A DNA stretch of 50,331 nt from a virus. The notes beneath the pieces are model-generated. The model was not told the origin of the DNA, made no database searches, and saw only the letters and a program-made list of their open reading frames with translations. The translations under genes and the position numbers were made by a program. The stretch spans positions 1 through 50,331 of IMG/VR virus record IMGVR_UViG_3300046009_015999; one strand, written 5' to 3'. This document shows positions 2,376 to 50,222 of this stretch, one piece after another (position 1 is the first letter of the stretch; each line of letters opens with the position of its first letter).

Positions 2376-3738
2376 TTACAAATCAAAACAAATAGATCTA
2401 CCGCCTCTAGCCTCAGACATGAATCGACTAAACAAAAGACCTTCATATACTGGATCGACATCAGTGATTCCAAGGCAATAACAAACCAAAGATCCACAAG
2501 CACTTCCTCTTCCGGGTCCTACAGCTTGAGTTCCATCACCACCGATATTTTCTCTACACCATTTTCTTGCTTCGTCAGTCATCATCTTTTGAATAAGAAA
2601 ATATGTACTAAAACCTTTGCGAGTTATAAGGCTCAACTCTTCAATTATTCTATTTTTATATTCTGTAGTCATTGGCAAATTACGATGTTTAAATCCTCTC
2701 AAGACTTCATCCTTAAGCCTTTGGTCACAATCTGGAAATATAGGTAGTTTCAGACTTCTATCTAATTCGACACCTTTTGCTTTACGACAAATCTCTACTG
2801 TATTCTTTTTAGCTTCGCAAAAAATTTCATAAGGAATAATATCTTTATAATCACTCAGCCACTTTTCATTAAGTTCTTCCTCAGATTTCATCCATAGATT
2901 AGCATCCTGCAATTCGAAGAAATCCTGCATTGAATCTTCTTTCATTGCCCTTTGAATTTCTTTTAATGTTCTGTTGGTCTGAACCATCAACATAAGTCTT
3001 TGCAAGTGACTATCTTCTTTACGGCAATAATGACAATCTTGCGTAAGAATAATCTTCAATCCAAATTTTTGCTTTGCTTTAACAATAAAAGCGTCATAAG
3101 GTTTTTGTTTAACAAAATCTAAAAGCATAATTTCAAGCAGATAATTTTCTTTACCAAACATCTGAATGTATCGTTCTATCATTTGAAATCCAGCTTCTTC
3201 TCCGCCAGCATCAAATGCTCTGCCAACTTCGCTGTTATAGCAACAACTTGTAAAAAATAAGCCTTCTTTATGCTTCTCAAGTTGTTCGTAATTTACTCTT
3301 GGCTTTCTATAAAATCCTTTCGTCCAACCCCAAGATGTCAAACGAACAAGATTTTTATATCCAGTTTCATTATATGCTATGGCTAATAAGTGTGGACTTG
3401 CTCTCAGTTCCAATAATTCACTTGGAGAGAGAGATTCAGAAAATTTTTGCATGTCCGACAAAGAAGAGGATTGTGGTTGCAATCTATTTACATAAAGTTC
3501 CGCAGCGAATATGGGAGAAAGTTTATTTTTCCCATATTTATCACATATCTTTTCGCATGCTTTGATTTGTCTGGGAACTGCTCCCAACATGCCATGATCA
3601 CTAATTGTAAGAAAATTTTGATTTATTTCTGTAGCACGAACCGAATATTCTTCGCATGTTCCAAGCCCATCGAGGACGGAAAAGTCGGAGTAACTAATGA
3701 AGGTGGAGATGTTCAAAACCAACAATCTCCACCTTCAT
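2376..3738 (-). CDS. dnaE: DNA polymerase III alpha (DnaE) N-terminal fragment: PHP plus start of palm; frameshifted and truncated
   Basis: The PHP domain (LTISDHGMLGAVPRQ, then FAAELYVN) is followed by the C-family polymerase signature GPGRGSACGSLVCYCLGITD. The best start is ATG at 3738 behind AAAGGAG; it reads MKVEIVGFEHLHLH and meets TAG at 3696-3694. Removing one T (3697/3696) would continue straight into SYSDFSVLDGLG, so the N-terminal metal-binding motif is interrupted by a one-base insertion. An uninterrupted 449-codon frame can begin only at TTG 3725, which loses HLHLH. The 3' end is also abnormal: the protein stops at ARGGRSICFDL, just where family members enter the catalytic PDxDxD motif and hundreds more residues. 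It is either a decaying gene, half of a split polymerase, or partly an assembly error. Confidence 0.8.
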
Positions 3739-3765: not shown

Positions 3766-4554
3766 TCAATCTCTTTGTTTAGTTTGAAGCCAAATTAAAA
3801 ATTCTTGCTTATCGTACTTTGCATTTTTACGACAATTCTCAGAAGCTGAAATTGGTCGTAAATTTTCCAAACAATTGATCAAAGACAAATCCCAAATCTT
3901 ATGATCTGAAAACGCCTTGATTGGGAAAATATGGTCAATATGCCACTTTCCATTTTTTACCTTTTCATAATTCTCATGATTGATTATATGATTTTGCAAT
4001 TCTTTATAATCATAGCCAAGTAAAGCTGAAGTTTTAGACTTTTTTACTCTGCCAGTAACCGCCAAACTCATACTCAATAATTTATACGATCTCTGTCGAA
4101 ATATCAAGTCCATTTTAAATTTCTCTCGATCATCAACCCATTCATAATGATTTTCTCCAGATCGTTTGGCAATTCCGCAATCCCAACATCTTTTACCTGT
4201 TCTGAAATTATTCCAAGAGATCTTTGCTTCTTTGCCACAAGAACAAATATATCGCATATTCTTGGAAGACTTTTCGTATTGATCCAAAAGCGTACAACCA
4301 ACGGCTGCGAATTCAGATTTTATTTTTTCATGAGAATAAGAGAATCGTTCGCTTATTTTGCGAGAACCGCAATTTTTACATCTATTGCCAGATTTGAAAC
4401 TATAAAAAACAATTTTAGATTCGTTTCCACAAGAACAACGATACCTCATTGGTGTGCGAGCATTGATATAAGTATCTTCTAATAATTTGCAACCATTTTT
4501 TAAGAAGAAACTTTGAACGAATTGATAGGTAAGTCTTTGACTTGAATATTTCAT
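3766..4554 (-). CDS. Free-standing HNH homing endonuclease with zinc-finger repeats
   Basis: Residues ~25-135 hold two copies of a zinc-binding module (RYRCSCGNESKI...NRCKNCG and RYICSCGKEAKI...KRCWDCG), probably for DNA recognition. The C-terminus carries an HNH core: WHIDHIFPIKAF, then NCLENLRPISASENCRKN. The start is taken at 4554 (MKYSSQRL) because GGAGG lies just upstream; a longer frame reaches 4587 without an RBS. It sits directly upstream of the damaged polymerase gene, the usual habit of phage homing endonucleases. About 262 aa. Confidence 0.85.
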   Translation of the reverse strand: MKYSSQRLTYQFVQSFFLKNGCKLLEDTYINARTPMRYRCSCGNESKIVFYSFKSGNRCKNCGSRKISERFSYSHEKIKSEFAAVGCTLLDQYEKSSKNMRYICSCGKEAKISWNNFRTGKRCWDCGIAKRSGENHYEWVDDREKFKMDLIFRQRSYKLLSMSLAVTGRVKKSKTSALLGYDYKELQNHIINHENYEKVKNGKWHIDHIFPIKAFSDHKIWDLSLINCLENLRPISASENCRKNAKYDKQEFLIWLQTKQRD

Positions 4555-4558
4555 AAAA

Positions 4559-4581
4559 CCTCCAATATATTTAGTTGGAGG
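4559..4581 (-). promoter_or_regulatory. RBS-sequestering hairpin of the HNH gene
   Basis: On the minus strand CCTCCAA (4581-4575), loop CTAAATATA, then TTGGAGG (4565-4559) form a perfect 7-bp hairpin that captures the Shine-Dalgarno GGAGG 4 nt before ATG 4554. This resembles the T4 I-TevI leader, where the RBS is hidden in early RNA and an AT-rich late promoter sits in the hairpin. Confidence 0.65.
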
Positions 4582-4627
4582 CTTCACAATTATTTCAATC
4601 TTTTAGACGGTTCTGCAGAATTAAAAG

Positions 4628-4860: not shown

Positions 4861-7800
4861 TTATTTCTTTTCTCGAATTCTTACATTAGCAGGATCATTA
4901 TCGAAACATTCGAATACGACATCAGTACCATCATGACCTTTAGTGGAAAGAAAAACATCATTTCCCCAAATGAATCTTAGACCAACCAATACATCTCGAA
5001 CATAAGGCTCATGAAGCGGTCTGCCTTCAAATGTATGCTCAAGCATCAGATAGCCCTTACCACGATAATTAGGCTCTGTTAAACGAATATCTGGCAGTCC
5101 TCCATTTACATGGCGAGCCATCAACAATTTTTTTATCTTATTGTAATCATGACTTTCAAGAATCGTCTCTCCGCTTGGATAACGCTTATGTTCAAAGTAT
5201 TCTTGTTCTCGACAGAAATCCTCGGTAAAAAATTCATGTATTAAAGTTAGATCATCGTAATACTTTCTAACTTCAAATATTTTTTCCTTACCAAGCATTG
5301 CCTTGGTATCCCATTTTTCTTTCTTGCTAGAATTTGTGCAATCATCCCATTCATTGCCGAATTGACCTTTATCCCAACGATTGCGAATATCGGACAAAAG
5401 ATTATATCCTAGCTTATAAGGATTGGTGCTATATTTTCCACCAAGAACACCCATCTTGTGTGCAGCGTATTCAATGATTCCAGAATCATGAGTCTTTTGA
5501 CCCAAGCCGACATAACCCTGTTCTGCCATGATAACATGGTCAGTCATACTATTATGATTCATAAATCCACAAGCCGAATATCGATGACTTGTTTCTACTG
5601 TAATGTCATACACTGTATCTTTTCCAATTTTTTCGATAGAAACAATTTCATCTTCAAGTTTTTGATCAATAAACCATTTATGATTGTCAATATACTTCTT
5701 TAACTTTTGCTGTTTTCTAGATAATCCAAAACCTATTTGCTCATAATACTTTACCGCTTCCTGTCCGGTTATGCGTACATGCCAACAAGAATCTTTTTGT
5801 TTGCGTCTTGTTGATAATATGCAAAAATTCAACAAAACATTTTGTATTTGTCTGGAAAGAACTTCGCTTGCGGTGGAAAGAATGACACCAGCATTCCCCG
5901 CATAACCATCACAATCAAAATACGATCTTACAAAAGAAGCGATAACACTCTTGGGCGATTTAAGAATAATTTCTGGTATTTGCTTAATCCTAGCACAGAC
6001 TCCAGTTTTCATTCCCAAATAAACAAGTAGTTCTTCAAGTTCTTTTGAAGTTACAGAAATTCTATATCGACCATTTTTAGATGTGTCATCCCAACTAGAT
6101 TTACAATCTATACTAAATAATTTCTTTGTAAGACGAATATAATTATCGGCTTGATCTTTATCTCCAGTTGTTAAGCCAAGAGTTCTCTTGCTTTTAGATA
6201 TATGACCATCTCCAATCATATATCCAACAAATGAAGCAAATTCTTCATCCATAAAAAAAGGCAAAGATATACATTTCCTTTTATTTCTCATGCATGTCAT
6301 AGACTGATCATCATATTGCTTGAGCAATTTGTCTAAATTGTCATTTTTTTCTTCACCTTTATAATGATATTTTCTATAAACGACTTGAGACATAGTCACT
6401 GATGCTTTTTTACAAATTTGCTTCAATTCTATCCTTTTATTGGGCAATTTATAATCGATTTTTTGATATTTTTTCGTCCAAATATTTGAAAATGATATTT
6501 TAACTTTTTCACCTACATTCATTTTATCAAGACGAACCCAATCATTATTACCCATAATTCTATGATTATTTGAACCCTCAAAAACATATCCTCTTCTAGT
6601 TTCAATCCTATAAACATCACGATTTTCAAAAGTGAACCAATTTGTAACATTTCTAGATTTTTCACCATCATAAACCATAACAGGCAACTTTTTATCGACA
6701 ATTTCACCTAATGTCAAAATGCCCATATTTGTAGATACAAGAGAATCTTTTCGTCCGCAAGCCCATCCTTCGTTTAATACTTTGGTTTGTCTCTGTGGGA
6801 AAAAATAAATTGATTCTTCATAGATCATAGACATGATATCTTGTTGCCAAGGCTTAAGTGGAGCATTATCACGCAAAAATCCAAATATATCTTTAACTGG
6901 TTCTATAAAAAATCCAAGTTCTTCTGCAAGATCCTTATCTTTTACCTTTTCATTTTCTCTTTCTTTGAACTCTTTTGTGTTGATGTAATTATCCATATAA
7001 AATCGATCACTATCAACTTTAAGTCTTTTTGGAAATCTATAATTTCTTTTATCAATAATATTTCTATCTTTGATAACTTTTTGATGCCAAGCCGATGCTC
7101 CATCAACCAAAGTATCAATGCGAAGTAAATAATCAAGAAATTCAGTAACCTTTTCCTTGCCCCATCTAGCCATATATTTTTTAATACGGCTACTATGATT
7201 TGCCATGTTGTTCAACATGTTTGTATCAGTAGCAGAAAAGTGAATATTATTTTTAAAGAAATCATTATGACCAGTGGCGTGAGCGATAACAGTCAGATGA
7301 TCCAATAATGTGTTGCTATCTAAGCAATAGATGTAACATGGCGATGTGTTATGAGTAATCAATCCATATGCAATAAAATCATGAGCATCATGATCCAATG
7401 CAATATCAACAGTTTCGATCTCATCTCCATCAACAACATGCTCAACAACAAATAAAGGATTTGAAATAATATCTTTAATTTCATTTGGAACACTTAATCC
7501 TTGATTTTCTGCTCTTTGTACAAATGAAGAAAAAGAATTAATCCCAACTTTTTGTTTCTCGAACATTTTAATTGAATAGCCAAGACTATGGTTGTTATAT
7601 GTTGTAATGTTTAGATTTTTTGCCCACATAATCAATTGTTGTTGAATATATGGCAACTCCATACCTCCATTACGACAAAATTTTCTATCAAGTAATTTTT
7701 TAAGTAATTCTTGCTTATAGTTAAGCACAAAACCTATTCTATTGTAAAATTTATTTTCAGCCCAAATTCCCTTAATTTTAACAACATTAATATATTTTTG

Positions 7801-8967
7801 ATCACCTTTTTTACCCTTGCCATTTTTTAATGTTTTTAAATTAGAAAGAATTCCCATTTCTGAAAGCATAATCTGAACATCATCTGCCAATTTTTTATTG
7901 TAGCAACTAAAACCAACATGGTTAACCACATAGCCATCAGTATCGAACAAACCACGAATAAAAGCACATCTATAGGCAGGAGGAGACTTCCAAATAATAT
8001 CTGGAATTACTTTTTCTTTAAATGTGTTGCCTTTCTTTAAACCAATCGAATTAACAAAATCAACTGCGTTTTTTGAGCATAATGTTACATTGAAACAATT
8101 TGGCTTTTCGTAAATATCTGCTCCGATTCCAAATACCTTTTCAAACAAAAATACAACATGTTCTGCGTATGACCTATGTTTTTTACCAACAGCAACAGTC
8201 AACATATTTTCAGCCGACTTTACTCCTACTGATCCATCTCCAACCAAAATTCCAAGAAGTTCTGCCAATTCCATAGTAATCTGATTTGGCGGATAAATTT
8301 CTTTGACACAATGTCTAATGTTTGGTCTTGTTGATTCAATGACTTGTTTTGATGACCAGTCAATACTTGGTGCATCCCAATTATTTTCATAAGAATCAGT
8401 TCCTACAAAAATGTCACCAGAAATAATTTCAGATGTCTTTTTCCAGATCAAACCTTTATCGGAAAGTATACGCCACTTGTGATTTGGCGTACAAACTAAT
8501 GTCTGACCACCTTTAAGAAAAATTTTCTTGGTTTGAGAAGAATTTTGTTTTTTTATGGCGACAACATTCCTAGTTTCACTACCAACAATAACTTGATCTC
8601 CTACCTTCACATCTCCAGCTAGAATTGTACCACGCTTAGTCAAAACCGGAGCGTCAAGTTCACAGCAATTGATAACCATCTCATATATTTTGTGCATTTG
8701 ATTTTCATATCCACGCTGCAATTCTTCATATTGCATGCCAAATGACCAATGTGGATATCGTACTGGAAAACCACCATACGCTGCTACTTCAGAGATTTCA
8801 TCGTAGGTAAGAAGTTGCACTACGGTTGGATAAAAGTCCAAACCCCAATCTTTACAAACATTTAAAATTATTTGAGCATATTCTTTTAATTGTTTTGGAA
8901 GCTGAACTCCGGGAATTGTGTTGTCGCCAATAAGAAGCGAAGAACCATGCATGAACTTATTAGACAT
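4861..8967 (-). CDS. spoVR: SpoVR/YcgB family protein containing two inteins
   Basis: A 1368-codon frame. Host-protein parts are residues 1-100, 541-736 and 1140-1368; together they give about 525 aa, the usual size of E. coli YcgB/SpoVR. Recognisable family blocks are YPHWSFGMQYEEL, IAHATGHNDFFKNN, VLNEGWA and LEHTFEGRPL. Intein 1 (101-540) splits the INTSPC motif and intein 2 (737-1139) splits NEGWA-SMTDH, both conserved places. SpoVR is needed for spore cortex formation in Bacillus; in enteric bacteria the family travels with PrkA (YeaG) and YeaH in a stationary-phase/stress system of unknown chemistry. It is the third gene of that operon here, 18 nt downstream of YeaH. Function depends on protein splicing of both inteins. 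Confidence 0.93.
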   Translation of the reverse strand: MSNKFMHGSSLLIGDNTIPGVQLPKQLKEYAQIILNVCKDWGLDFYPTVVQLLTYDEISEVAAYGGFPVRYPHWSFGMQYEELQRGYENQMHKIYEMVINCCELDAPVLTKRGTILAGDVKVGDQVIVGSETRNVVAIKKQNSSQTKKIFLKGGQTLVCTPNHKWRILSDKGLIWKKTSEIISGDIFVGTDSYENNWDAPSIDWSSKQVIESTRPNIRHCVKEIYPPNQITMELAELLGILVGDGSVGVKSAENMLTVAVGKKHRSYAEHVVFLFEKVFGIGADIYEKPNCFNVTLCSKNAVDFVNSIGLKKGNTFKEKVIPDIIWKSPPAYRCAFIRGLFDTDGYVVNHVGFSCYNKKLADDVQIMLSEMGILSNLKTLKNGKGKKGDQKYINVVKIKGIWAENKFYNRIGFVLNYKQELLKKLLDRKFCRNGGMELPYIQQQLIMWAKNLNITTYNNHSLGYSIKMFEKQKVGINSFSSFVQRAENQGLSVPNEIKDIISNPLFVVEHVVDGDEIETVDIALDHDAHDFIAYGLITHNTSPCYIYCLDSNTLLDHLTVIAHATGHNDFFKNNIHFSATDTNMLNNMANHSSRIKKYMARWGKEKVTEFLDYLLRIDTLVDGASAWHQKVIKDRNIIDKRNYRFPKRLKVDSDRFYMDNYINTKEFKERENEKVKDKDLAEELGFFIEPVKDIFGFLRDNAPLKPWQQDIMSMIYEESIYFFPQRQTKVLNEGWACGRKDSLVSTNMGILTLGEIVDKKLPVMVYDGEKSRNVTNWFTFENRDVYRIETRRGYVFEGSNNHRIMGNNDWVRLDKMNVGEKVKISFSNIWTKKYQKIDYKLPNKRIELKQICKKASVTMSQVVYRKYHYKGEEKNDNLDKLLKQYDDQSMTCMRNKRKCISLPFFMDEEFASFVGYMIGDGHISKSKRTLGLTTGDKDQADNYIRLTKKLFSIDCKSSWDDTSKNGRYRISVTSKELEELLVYLGMKTGVCARIKQIPEIILKSPKSVIASFVRSYFDCDGYAGNAGVILSTASEVLSRQIQNVLLNFCILSTRRKQKDSCWHVRITGQEAVKYYEQIGFGLSRKQQKLKKYIDNHKWFIDQKLEDEIVSIEKIGKDTVYDITVETSHRYSACGFMNHNSMTDHVIMAEQGYVGLGQKTHDSGIIEYAAHKMGVLGGKYSTNPYKLGYNLLSDIRNRWDKGQFGNEWDDCTNSSKKEKWDTKAMLGKEKIFEVRKYYDDLTLIHEFFTEDFCREQEYFEHKRYPSGETILESHDYNKIKKLLMARHVNGGLPDIRLTEPNYRGKGYLMLEHTFEGRPLHEPYVRDVLVGLRFIWGNDVFLSTKGHDGTDVVFECFDNDPANVRIREKK
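5551..6759 (-). mobile_element. Intein 2 in SpoVR (403 aa, LAGLIDADG type)
   Basis: Begins CGRKDSLVSTN after NEGWA and ends HRYSACGFMNHN with Ser at +1. Block B is GSNNHRIMG. Two dodecapeptides, SFVGYMIGDGHI and SFVRSYFDCDGY, indicate a homing endonuclease. It differs clearly in sequence from intein 1, so the two are independent invasions of one gene rather than a duplication. Confidence 0.93.
7348..8667 (-). mobile_element. Intein 1 in SpoVR (440 aa, LAGLIDADG type)
   Basis: Begins with Cys (CCELDAPVLTKRG, matching the C-x3-D-x2-V block A) and ends FIAYGLITHN, followed by Thr as the +1 nucleophile. Block B is LVCTPNHKWRIL. Two LAGLIDADG dodecapeptides are present: ELLGILVGDGSV and AFIRGLFDTDGY. 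All splicing residues (Cys1, TxxH, terminal His-Asn, Thr+1) are visible, so it should be active in splicing, and the endonuclease motifs retain their Asp residues. Confidence 0.93.
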
Positions 8968-8985: not shown

Positions 8986-10182
8986 TTACTTTGATTTTTG
9001 ATTACCCATCAAACTTTTAATTGCATCTAAAATTTGATTATTTCTAATTTCATCATCACGCATATTCGAATCATTAGGATTTCCATTTCCAAAGTTAATT
9101 TCGGTGGTACGAATATTATTTTTATCAAGCTCTCCAGTTTCCAATGCCTTATCGACATGATACTTAACACTATTGGTATAGTTATAAGGCAAAATTTGTG
9201 TGATCCCGACTAAATTAATATCCTTTTCTGGAAATGATTCTTTTAATGTGTTGATAAATACTTGATTATCATCGCCCCAATTATCTCCATCCGTAAAGTA
9301 AAAAACATAAATGTTCCACTTTTGCGGAGGGTATCTATTCTCAAATTGCTTTTGAATAAATTTCAAAGCAGAAGAACAAGTTGTTCCTCCGCCATATCGG
9401 TAGTTATAAAACTTTTCTTCATCTACTTCCATGGCAAGAGAATCGTGCCACACAAAAAGTCGATCAACTCTTTTATAAAATTGTCTAATCCAAACATCAA
9501 TCCACCAAGCCATATCTGATACGATCTCACATTTAGCTTGATCCATCGATCCAGATCCATCACGGGCATAAATGATCAAAGCATTGCTAGAAGGAACTTT
9601 AACTTCTTTGTATTGCCTATAACGCTTGTCACGCTTAATTGGCTTGATTGTCTTCATAGGCATGCTAAGACCCGGAACTATTTCAAAATTATTAGCAGTT
9701 CCATCTGCACATTGCCTTTTTAAAGCTTCGATAAAAGTTCTTCTATTATGACGCAAAGATTCGGGACCAACCAAAGATATATTATTATATTTGATTTTTA
9801 CTTCATCGAATGTATCATTTACTTTTGGCTTTAAATTTGGCAATTCCAGTTCATCTTGCATGAACTTCAATACAGTTTCCAAATCAAGACTTACGGTGAT
9901 TCCTTCACCTTCATCCTGAGTTGCTCCATTGCCTTTTCCTTTTTTGCCCTTATCAATAACATCGCCATCCTTGCCTTTACCTCTGCCGATGCCATTGCCG
10001 TTATCACCATAAAGAATTTGAGGAATATCAATTTTTGGAATTGTGATAGAAATTTTACCTCGTTTGCCACGAGATTTTACTATCTGTCCAGATTTGATAA
10101 ACTTTTTAAGTGCTTTACGAAGTTTGCCTGAGACAACATCTATAAAGTCTTTATGATCTTCTTCAATTCTGCGTGGACACAT
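8986..10182 (-). CDS. yeaH: YeaH/UPF0229 (DUF444) family protein with vWA-like domain
   Basis: 398 aa, slightly shorter than E. coli YeaH (~427). The N-terminus is basic, then a Gly/Lys-rich low-complexity linker (residues ~60-95), then a vWA-like domain with the MIDAS motif DGSGSM at 208-213 and the later T and D positions (GGGTTCSSAL, YFTDGDNWG). DUF444 proteins accompany PrkA and SpoVR in many proteobacteria. It lies 6 nt downstream of PrkA, so the two are co-transcribed and probably translationally linked. Likely role: a metal-dependent protein-binding partner of the kinase; the molecular target is unknown. Confidence 0.93.
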   Translation of the reverse strand: MCPRRIEEDHKDFIDVVSGKLRKALKKFIKSGQIVKSRGKRGKISITIPKIDIPQILYGDNGNGIGRGKGKDGDVIDKGKKGKGNGATQDEGEGITVSLDLETVLKFMQDELELPNLKPKVNDTFDEVKIKYNNISLVGPESLRHNRRTFIEALKRQCADGTANNFEIVPGLSMPMKTIKPIKRDKRYRQYKEVKVPSSNALIIYARDGSGSMDQAKCEIVSDMAWWIDVWIRQFYKRVDRLFVWHDSLAMEVDEEKFYNYRYGGGTTCSSALKFIQKQFENRYPPQKWNIYVFYFTDGDNWGDDNQVFINTLKESFPEKDINLVGITQILPYNYTNSVKYHVDKALETGELDKNNIRTTEINFGNGNPNDSNMRDDEIRNNQILDAIKSLMGNQKSK

Positions 10183-10188
10183 GTTCTA

Positions 10189-12261
10189 TTATTCCTCGGC
10201 TAGATCGCCTCTTGCAAATATAGATCCAACAAAATCTAGAACATCAGTTGCAGATCTTTCGTTATAACCATACTGTTTGATAAGGCGAGTTTTAATCGCA
10301 TCTATTTTTTCTTGAATATCCTTATCAACCACAGTTGCTCCGCTAACATTGAGTGCGGACAACTTAATGGTATCTTTTACATCTTCAAAAAGCTTTGCTT
10401 CTAAAGCTTTTCTCAATTTTGGATTAGAATCCCAACTAAATTGCTTGTGCTTGATTGCAAGGTCGCCAATAAAAGCAGCTATCTGCCTACGGAAATCATC
10501 AGCACCCGGTTCTGGTATGTCGATCTTAGATTCAATGGCTCGCATCAATCTTTCATCAGGCTTTCTATCTTGCCCTGTGATTGGATCTTTAATCTTACTT
10601 TTGTTGATATACGCCATGATATTATCAATGTAATTAGCACAAAGGCGAATAATCGCATCTTCATCACCAACAAGAGCCTTCTGAACTTCGGCTTTTAAAA
10701 TTTCAGTCAACTTCTTAACTACTAAATCAATACATGTGATGTATCGACCAACATCATCCTTATTGTTCAACAAAGAACTTCCTTCTAAACCTTCACGAAG
10801 CTCATTTAGAACCATGAACATATTTACATAGTCATGATTATTGGCTAGGCAGTTTGAAAGCTTATCTTGAACATAACGAACTGAAACACCACGGGTCATA
10901 CCCTCATCAGGATACCTATCCTTTAATTCTTTGACTTGCTCTTCTGTCCATCCAGAAAGAAGTTTGCCGTCATAAAGCTCTGCCTTTTCGACTAAGGAAA
11001 TTTTACCATCCTTATCATCATGAAGTCTGGTTAAAACTGCCCATAGAGCAGCAACTTCAAGTGTGTGTGGTGCGATATGTTGTTTGACCCTATCTACACC
11101 ATAATCTTTTTCCAAGATTTTAAGTTCTTCGCCCCATCGAAGAGTATAAGGAACATCGATCTTTACAGTCCTGTCACGCAACGCTTCCATATATTGATTG
11201 CTTCTAAGCCTTTCGTATTCAGGGCTATTGGTATGACAAAATATTGCCTCATCAATAGAGACTTGTGCAAACTTCTTCGGCTTAATACTTTGCTCTTGGC
11301 TTGCTCCCAAGAGATCATATAAAAATGCTTGATCTAACTTCAAAGCTTCTATAAACTCTATAATTCCCCTGTTTCCGACACAAAATTCTCCGTCAAAATT
11401 AAAACTTCTTGGGTCAGAGTCGGAACCAAAGGTGCTGATACGACTAAAATTAATATCACCTGTAAGTTCTGTAGAGTCTTGATTTTTTTCATCTTTCGGT
11501 TGGAATGTGGCGATACCAACACGATCTGCTTCGCTATATGTTTTTCGAATTACTCGAATATGTTTTTCGAGAACTTTTTCGAGATCTCCATCATACCTAA
11601 TCAAAAGTTCTTTCATAAAGAACTTGCATCTTGGATCAAGCTCTCCCTCGCACTTCAATGCATATAGTTCATTTCTCTCTTCTGCAGATACAGACTCAGA
11701 AAGAACTCGATTCAAATCATCCATAATAGGTTTACGAATTTCTGGAGGAAGCAACTTAAGTGGCTGCTCATGCATTGGGCATTCGTCTTCTTCTTTGACA
11801 TAAATTCCATCTTGTCCAGTCGGAAGATTTATCCATTTGAAAGTATACCAAGCACCAGCATCGGTTGTGGAATAATTTTCCAATTCTCGCTTGAACAATC
11901 TACAGATTGTAGATTTAGAGCTACCTACAGGTCCGTGCAAAAGAAGAATTCTTTTTTCAGTACCAAAATATCCAGCTGCACCTTTGATGAACTTAACCAA
12001 AGAATCCTTAGTTGGTGTCAGACCAATGATTGGACATTCCTGATTATCAAAAAAATTATAATGTTTGTATGTCTTTCTGTATTCTTCAACGGCATGACAA
12101 CCCTTTTCCATAATCATGTCGTAAATCATTTGCCAAGAATTACGAACAAGTCTTGGTTGCTGATAGCACAGATCAATGTATTCGGAAAATGACATTTCTC
12201 CGTTAAGAATTTTAAATTTGCTTTGATTGAATCTGCCTATGAATCTTTTAAGTTCGTCCAT
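10189..12261 (-). CDS. prkA: PrkA/YeaG family serine protein kinase (AAA+ ATPase)
   Basis: 690 aa, close to E. coli YeaG (644). After a helical N-terminus come the PrkA AAA domain with P-loop GPVGSSKST at 110-118 and the characteristic GEFCVGNRGIIEFIEALK and CHTNSPEYERLR blocks, then the C-terminal PrkA kinase-like domain (TRGVSVRYVQDKLSNCLAN). In bacteria it works in stress and stationary-phase adaptation with YeaH and SpoVR. The residue before the P-loop Lys is Ser instead of the Gly usual in E. coli (GPVGGGKS). First gene of the operon, starting 34 nt downstream of a likely promoter. Confidence 0.94.
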   Translation of the reverse strand: MDELKRFIGRFNQSKFKILNGEMSFSEYIDLCYQQPRLVRNSWQMIYDMIMEKGCHAVEEYRKTYKHYNFFDNQECPIIGLTPTKDSLVKFIKGAAGYFGTEKRILLLHGPVGSSKSTICRLFKRELENYSTTDAGAWYTFKWINLPTGQDGIYVKEEDECPMHEQPLKLLPPEIRKPIMDDLNRVLSESVSAEERNELYALKCEGELDPRCKFFMKELLIRYDGDLEKVLEKHIRVIRKTYSEADRVGIATFQPKDEKNQDSTELTGDINFSRISTFGSDSDPRSFNFDGEFCVGNRGIIEFIEALKLDQAFLYDLLGASQEQSIKPKKFAQVSIDEAIFCHTNSPEYERLRSNQYMEALRDRTVKIDVPYTLRWGEELKILEKDYGVDRVKQHIAPHTLEVAALWAVLTRLHDDKDGKISLVEKAELYDGKLLSGWTEEQVKELKDRYPDEGMTRGVSVRYVQDKLSNCLANNHDYVNMFMVLNELREGLEGSSLLNNKDDVGRYITCIDLVVKKLTEILKAEVQKALVGDEDAIIRLCANYIDNIMAYINKSKIKDPITGQDRKPDERLMRAIESKIDIPEPGADDFRRQIAAFIGDLAIKHKQFSWDSNPKLRKALEAKLFEDVKDTIKLSALNVSGATVVDKDIQEKIDAIKTRLIKQYGYNERSATDVLDFVGSIFARGDLAEE

Positions 12262-44438: not shown

Positions 44439-46656
<2,218 letters not shown>

Positions 46657-46729
46657 ATTTTTCACCGAACTACATATTTTCACCGATAACAAATTTATTG
46701 TTTTGCTTACAGCCAATACATAGAGATAA

Positions 46730-48997
<2,268 letters not shown>

Positions 48998-49023
48998 TTT
49001 CAATTTGCTCTAATCAAGCAACC

Positions 49024-49062
49024 AAAAAATCTTTTGCTGTAAAAGGCAAAAGATTTTTTTTT
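49024..49062 (+). terminator. Intrinsic terminator after fibre B
   Basis: Perfect 14-bp stem: AAAAAATCTTTTGC (49024-49037) pairs with GCAAAAGATTTTTT (49046-49059), with a trailing T-run. Confidence 0.85.
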
Positions 49063-49064
49063 GA

Positions 49065-50221
<1,157 letters not shown>

Positions 50222-50222
<1 letters not shown>

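Follow-up and report, generated by a model that had tools for sequence, protein, structure and literature searches.

The interrupted spoVR gene

The virus record IMGVR_UViG_3300046009_015999 of IMG/VR, analysed over all of its 50,331 bases (the window), carries on its minus strand a gene for a protein of the little-understood SpoVR family that is interrupted by two complete LAGLIDADG inteins. The record is classed as linear and is therefore perhaps a fragment. It encodes members of the UvsX, DnaB-like helicase, thymidylate synthase and single-stranded DNA-binding protein (SSB) families, and we therefore take the window to be phage DNA, as a first-pass annotation made from the sequence alone had done. 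The parts of the gene are listed below; the coordinates of the endonuclease motifs were counted by hand.

4861..8967, minus strand: SpoVR precursor open reading frame with two inteins, 1368 residues, ATG start
8668..8967, minus strand: SpoVR N-extein, residues 1-100, ending in YEMVIN
7348..8667, minus strand: intein 1, 440 residues (101-540), with Cys 1, block B TPNH, LAGLIDADG motifs, terminal HN and +1 Thr
8230..8268, minus strand: first LAGLIDADG motif of intein 1 (LAELLGILVGDGS)
7930..7962, minus strand: second LAGLIDADG motif of intein 1 (region of RGLFDTDGYV)
6760..7347, minus strand: SpoVR middle extein, TSPC to NEGWA, including HATGH
5551..6759, minus strand: intein 2, 403 residues (737-1139), with Cys 1, block B SNNH, LAGLIDADG motifs, terminal HN and +1 Ser
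6202..6240, minus strand: first LAGLIDADG motif of intein 2 (region of FASFVGYMIGDGH)
5899..5939, minus strand: second LAGLIDADG motif of intein 2 (region of RSYFDCDGYA)
4864..5550, minus strand: SpoVR C-extein, starting with SMTDH

In the 1368-residue product the SpoVR profile (PF04293) matches the extein in three stretches (E 4.6e-93; 312.6 bits against a cut-off of 27). The Intein_splicing profile (PF14890) matches two stretches (E 8.4e-19) and LAGLIDADG_3 (PF14528) the two LAGLIDADG stretches (E 1e-36). The HINT splicing domain of intein 2 is also matched by TIGR01445 (E 2.5e-8). Intein 1 lies after VIN and before TSPC (site 1), intein 2 after NEGWA and before SMTDH (site 2), and the three exteins join to 525 residues.

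Class 1 inteins are defined by Cys or Ser at position 1, a block B of the form [TS]xxH, a terminal HN and Cys, Ser or Thr as the first residue of the C-extein. These residues are present in both inteins of the window and in their homologues. Each window intein keeps two LAGLIDADG motifs with their acidic residues, and a pattern test finds both motifs in all 13 distinct copies of intein 1 and all seven distinct phage copies of intein 2. The first-pass annotation had placed two inteins at these motifs with their splicing residues in place and had foreseen a joined product of about 525 residues; both points hold, the length exactly. Its description of the two inteins as unrelated was wrong, their endonuclease regions being 30% identical over 226 residues (E about 1e-17).

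Filled and empty alleles in viral contigs

Two other viral contigs (L016 and L017) encode an intein-free SpoVR of 525 residues that is 100% identical to the joined extein of the window, so that excision is precise in silico. The alternative that the insertions do not splice and that this spoVR allele is dead draws some support from block B of intein 2, in which Ser replaces the usual Thr. SNNH is, however, also the commonest block B among the cellular site-2 inteins described below (25 of 64, the pattern finding no block B in 17). The reading frame stays open over its full length, and the extein protein equals that of L016 although the extein DNA of the two differs at about 22 bases. We regard a dead allele as extremely unlikely.

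The annotation had proposed a search of other phages for spoVR alleles with and without inteins, and all four states are found. Among 65 viral contigs with a full SpoVR, collected by viral contig scans and an intein-1 profile scan, 45 have neither intein, 10 have both, seven have intein 1 only and three have intein 2 only. Counted as distinct combinations of extein and state (n=50) the figures are 36, five, seven and two. The share with intein 1 only is inflated, since two of its members, L186 and L187, were collected through the search for intein 1. The 65 contigs leave out 15 second loci of the same contigs, three partial loci (L018 and L019, without intein 1, and L020, without intein 2) and the frame-broken L082; the named records L004, L005, L022 and L023 were held separate. 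Wherever viral SpoVRs of the window's group have inteins, they are at the same two junctions. A tblastn search against named phages found an intein-free SpoVR, 57% identical, in the 595-kb phage record LR756511.1.

In a tree of 53 phage SpoVR sequences (16 near-identical rows left out) the intein carriers are scattered. The copies of intein 1 fall into several old lineages, mostly 37-50% identical, that share a single site. Among 80 retained of 132 confirmed relatives of intein 1, 17 are in SpoVR and the other 63, three of which were read by eye, are at most 33% identical.

A footprint of homing

The mobility of intein 1 is best seen by comparing the window with L012, a contig that has intein 2 only. 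Outside intein 1 the two have five mismatches in 13.55 kb, and all five fall in a stretch of 103 bp just upstream of the junction of intein 1. Such clustering has a chance probability of about 2.5e-11, taking the post hoc span of 103 bp as given. A further apparent mismatch at 7348 is an alignment overlap at the last intein codon.

8674..8770, minus strand: putative co-conversion tract, five bases (8770, 8743, 8692, 8680, 8674) differing from L012

We read this cluster with confidence as the co-conversion footprint of homing. Two of the window's bases, C at -25 and T at -7, occur in none of L012, L016, L009, L011 and L013. In near-identical carriers of intein 1 the number of window-like bases among the five is graded: none in L007, four in L008, which has six further differences, and all five in L006 and L010. 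Break repair with tracts of variable length would leave flanks of this kind.

The +1 Ser of site 2 is encoded by AGT in the carriers (the window, L012, L009 and L011) and by TCT in the empty alleles (L016 and L013), the sister groups compared being the window and L012 with L016, and L009 and L011 with L013. The codon is AGT or AGC in all 13 contigs that carry intein 2, and the empty contigs have either kind.

Movement of the inteins between lineages is suggested as well. L009 and L080 are 91.4% identical in intein 1, with exteins at 69.9%; for intein 2 of L068 and L084 the values are 95.0% and 79.7%. An alternative is that the inteins are old and vertically inherited and that the alleles without them arose by precise loss. 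Such loss, through recombination with an empty allele, would leave clean junctions too, and L006 and L009 have intein-1 and extein identities (90.7% and 90.6%) such as vertical descent gives. Against this stand the pairs in which the inteins are far more alike than the exteins, and the bases at -25 and -7, which the window has but none of the five contigs named above for them, and which so more likely arrived with the intein. We consider vertical descent with losses very unlikely.

The explanation that we favour with high confidence is that phage spoVR carries two mobile, self-splicing LAGLIDADG inteins, at VIN^T and NEGWA^S (^ marks the junction), which would have spread by homing. Each intein would splice out of the precursor to leave an ordinary SpoVR of 525 residues. 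Its endonuclease would cut an intein-free spoVR, for example that of a co-infecting phage, and repair of the cut would copy the intein together with a little flanking DNA. Movement into intein-free alleles is indicated here by a footprint in the sequence.

Besides the equal identities of L006 and L009 and the Ser in block B of intein 2, several points weigh against this explanation. L007 has intein 1 without converted flanks, which calls for either a very short conversion tract or recombination afterwards. In the tree of 53 SpoVRs the carrier labels are as scattered as shuffled labels, neither more nor less. Cys 1 and the terminal HN are found in every phage intein partly by construction, as the script sought inteins that begin with Cys and end with Asn; none of the long SpoVR reading frames failed it. 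The contigs are metagenome assemblies; chance or an assembly artefact was considered as the source of the alleles and ruled out, since filled and empty alleles recur in many contigs.

Site-2 inteins in bacteria and archaea

The genomes of 84,980 species, one each, were searched for a DNA pattern encoding NEGWA, Cys and, four residues on, Asp. It matched 87 stretches, 74 of which lie in reading frames with SpoVR sequence. The intein end was placed by a scoring rule in 65 of the 74, the other nine being cut short, and one end (L173) was wrong, which leaves 64 inteins for comparison. All 64 begin with Cys and end with HN, a result that the search pattern and the scoring rule largely impose, and 37 have both nuclease motifs by pattern. 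The carriers span seven bacterial phyla (Myxococcota, Planctomycetota, Chloroflexota, Acidobacteriota, Armatimonadota, Nitrospirota and Pseudomonadota) and the haloarchaea, and the junction is identical to the phage site 2. The phage intein 2 would thus belong to a family that occupies one SpoVR junction in bacteria and archaea.

In a tree of site-2 inteins (n=71; seven near-identical names left out) the seven phage rows form one group (100/100), although a composition test flags six of them and the grouping may therefore partly reflect base composition. Phage and cellular inteins are at most 46% identical, a comparison made for L006. Nine haloarchaeal inteins (L091, L105, L112, L115, L116, L123, L128, L153 and L166) group with those of three Myxococcales metagenome-assembled genomes (MAGs), L147, L161 and L171 (100/97), hinting at transfer between domains. 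Some cellular inteins are shortened, to 324 (L168), 264 (L092 and L169) and 345 residues (L120), and their endonucleases are perhaps decaying.

Site 2 is filled in four of 58 Myxococcota, six of 78 Halobacteria, three of 67 Planctomycetota and none of 42 Gammaproteobacteria genomes with a match over the cut-off. Here a filled site is a PF04293 match broken near profile position 270, scored without a row-by-row check; the centre genomes, chosen for having site 2 filled, are omitted, and the incomplete G084 and G284 count as unfilled. An intein-like break at site 1 was found in none of the listed PF04293 rows of the same four groups, partial rows (for example G117, G223, G361, G442 and G451) being uninformative and Halobacteria being represented by the best match of each genome only. 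Among the sequences examined, site 1 is filled only in viral contigs.

Other SpoVR positions are occupied too. A planctomycete MAG (Fimbriiglobus, L103) has, besides a site-2 intein, a third intein after the second His of an HxxxH motif (AHVYGH^CDFF); this site is empty in its relative L094. The phage record LR756504.1 (L005) has a mini-intein of 129 residues at NEG^CATF, two residues from site 2, which is nearest to proteobacterial site-2 inteins (43-46%). L022 and L023 have the empty form of that site.

Conservation and a putative metal site

The first-pass annotation had supposed that the two sites mark functional hot spots of SpoVR. This was followed in an alignment of 43 rows, 30 phage SpoVRs and the N-terminal parts of 13 cellular ones, in which the invariant residues include N100, H123, H127, N292, E293, G294 and A296. 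N100 adjoins site 1, and N292, E293, G294 and A296 adjoin site 2. Over three residues on each side of the junction the two sites rank 60 and 103 of 495 in conservation (P = 0.068 for the pair), a borderline value that weighs against the explanation favoured above; with the HxxxH site added, P = 0.022. The supposition is made plausible by the invariant neighbours and by the predicted metal site described next, and weakened by the modest conservation of the junctions.

A model of the intein-free L016 protein (predicted local distance difference test score, pLDDT, 80.9; predicted template modelling score, pTM, 0.78) puts H123xxxH127 on a helix (114-133), NE293GWA on another (289-306) and site 1 between two strands (96-99 and 104-109). 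The top rows of VIA-align are mostly zinc peptidases, with Z up to 11.8: M32 carboxypeptidases, LTA4 hydrolase, thimet oligopeptidase, ACE-type enzymes and others, which we take to belong to clan MA. The other top rows are the putative lipoproteins 3o0y (both runs) and 3u24 (second run) and the putative hydrolase 3cmn (first run). VIA-align itself warns that chance alone gives middling Z values to models made up mostly of helices. Neither model had a Foldseek match at E <= 0.001, and a sequence search of the PDB found no relative of the extein at E <= 1. Seventeen weak PDB profile matches (E >= 0.11), mostly picornavirus VP4, were taken as chance.

When the SpoVR profile was compared with three M1 sequences by hhalign, the two best local alignments matched HATGH with HELAH (E 0.0066) and LNEGWA with LNEGFA (E 0.015); each E-value refers to one comparison, and the M1 sequences had been selected for HExxH followed by NEG. 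Comparisons with M32, DnaE and PrkA gave 0.48 (M32) or worse. The motif filters were passed by three of 10 M1 loci and five of six M32 loci.

Thus HExxH and NEGFA of the M1 gluzincins (LTA4 hydrolase and others) align with HxxxH and NEG[WF]A of SpoVR. The two families differ in that the Glu of HExxH is absent from SpoVR, which has HATGH in this phage group and HVYGH, HVFGH or HVEAH in cells; ordinary peptidase catalysis is therefore doubtful. The motifs also lie about 165 residues apart in SpoVR, against about 18 between HExxH and the third-ligand motif in M1 enzymes. We infer a zincin-like core with a putative metal site formed by HxxxH and NEGWA, in which E293 would be the candidate third ligand and which the two inteins would flank. 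SpoVR was reported in 2025 to bind RNA during sporulation (PMC12456014); this neither supports nor excludes a zincin-like metal site.

A position near a predicted metal site may favour the persistence of the inteins, since both mutations to resistance and imprecise loss would carry a high cost at such a place. The same position, and the occupation of site 2 in many phyla, could also suggest that the inteins are regulatory switches which keep SpoVR inactive until a signal of metal, redox state or temperature arrives. The 45 intein-free SpoVRs among the 65 viral contigs and the parasite-like pattern of spread argue against switches, which we judge unlikely. A broader proposal goes further. SpoVR would be a metalloprotein with a zincin fold that has gone unrecognised, and three elements of its active site (the HxxxH helix, the pair of strands that precedes it and the NEGWA helix) would each be a separate intein target in phages, bacteria and archaea. 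The precursor would stay inactive until the inteins splice, and splicing would set when the PrkA-YeaH-SpoVR system is switched on; this we offer as a doubtful but conceivable extension. The functional reading of the intein sites is a good lead whose statistical support is modest.

Neighbouring genes

Two genes stand directly upstream of spoVR in the same orientation.

8986..10182, minus strand: YeaH/YhbH-type DUF444 protein
10189..12261, minus strand: PrkA AAA+ protein

Scored for presence irrespective of gene order, PrkA and YeaH-type genes are both found in 65 of 67 scanned viral SpoVR loci, the misses being contigs of 5.4 and 6.0 kb (L020 and L037). This supports the PrkA-YeaH-SpoVR set named in the first-pass annotation. 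An arrangement of AAA+, vWA and third partner recalls chelatase and MoxR systems.

On the other side of spoVR lies dnaE. In this phage group two separate genes encode the N and C parts of DNA polymerase III alpha. The N part, of about 450-470 residues, is at 2376-3738 (minus strand) in the window, which lacks the C part; six relatives have the C part about 4-13 kb away, with about 907-925 residues in five and in pieces in G485. L004 has a one-piece gene of 1179 residues.

At the start of dnaE (3690-3738, minus strand) the reading frame is interrupted immediately behind the PHP motif EHLHLH. Such a gap is present at 15 of 32 distinct phage sites, the window included, and 17 are gap-free. The relatives with a gap are L011, L013, L016, L020, L028, L037, L039, L264, L021, L045, L051, L061, L083 and L089. 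Nine gaps consist of a stop codon and 4-5 nucleotides (TAG or TGA, then a YAY codon), and six of 40-42 nucleotides that would fold into a strong hairpin (-21.7 to -25.6 kcal/mol). The gap resembles the coding gap of T4 gene 60, where ribosomes hop; the likeness is limited by the hairpin type, whose take-off and landing codons mismatch. An HNH-type endonuclease gene is directly upstream of dnaE (3766-4587, minus strand). A homologue lies within 1.6 kb upstream at six of the 15 gap-bearing sites and none of the 17 gap-free sites (Fisher P 0.0055, in a test that ignores relatedness, the window and L016 being close; the homologue in L039 is a 49-residue match). In T4 the HNH gene mobA stands beside gene 60 with its gap of 50 nucleotides (PMC3014915).

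Long genes of collagen-like GxT repeats occupy 44470-50222 (plus strand) of the window, and the opposite end (1-1252) is repetitive too.

Relation to known inteins

The conserved gene of the archaeal replicative helicase likewise hosts two homing inteins, each at its own site, with alleles that carry one or both, as in phage SpoVR. There a single intein homes better than two together, which fits the SpoVR alleles with one intein. The helicase differs in being cellular and in that its homing was demonstrated by experiment, the evidence for SpoVR coming from sequence comparison. Phage inteins that reside in genes for DNA polymerase, terminase and helicase are distant matches to the intein stretches of the window, among the matches listed; in the Staphylococcus phages Remus and Romulus the matched feature is annotated as a putative intein, and the Psychrobacillus phage Perkons also matches. 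These inteins differ from those of SpoVR in identity (about 21-33%) and host gene. Inteins prefer conserved sites (PMC2814812); the SpoVR sites adjoin invariant residues, and the three-residue test of them is only borderline.

No paper was found that joins SpoVR, or stage V sporulation protein, with inteins, in a search outside of which lay supplements and most subscription journals. SpoVR thus appears to be an unreported host gene for an element of known kind. The nearly identical phage genomes seem to catch homing in progress, including graded co-conversion tracts. Since inteins tend to occupy residues that are hard to change, their sites in SpoVR, taken with the predicted fold, lead to a testable guess on the nature of SpoVR: it may be a protein with a metal site and have the AAA+ protein PrkA and the YeaH-type protein as its working partners.

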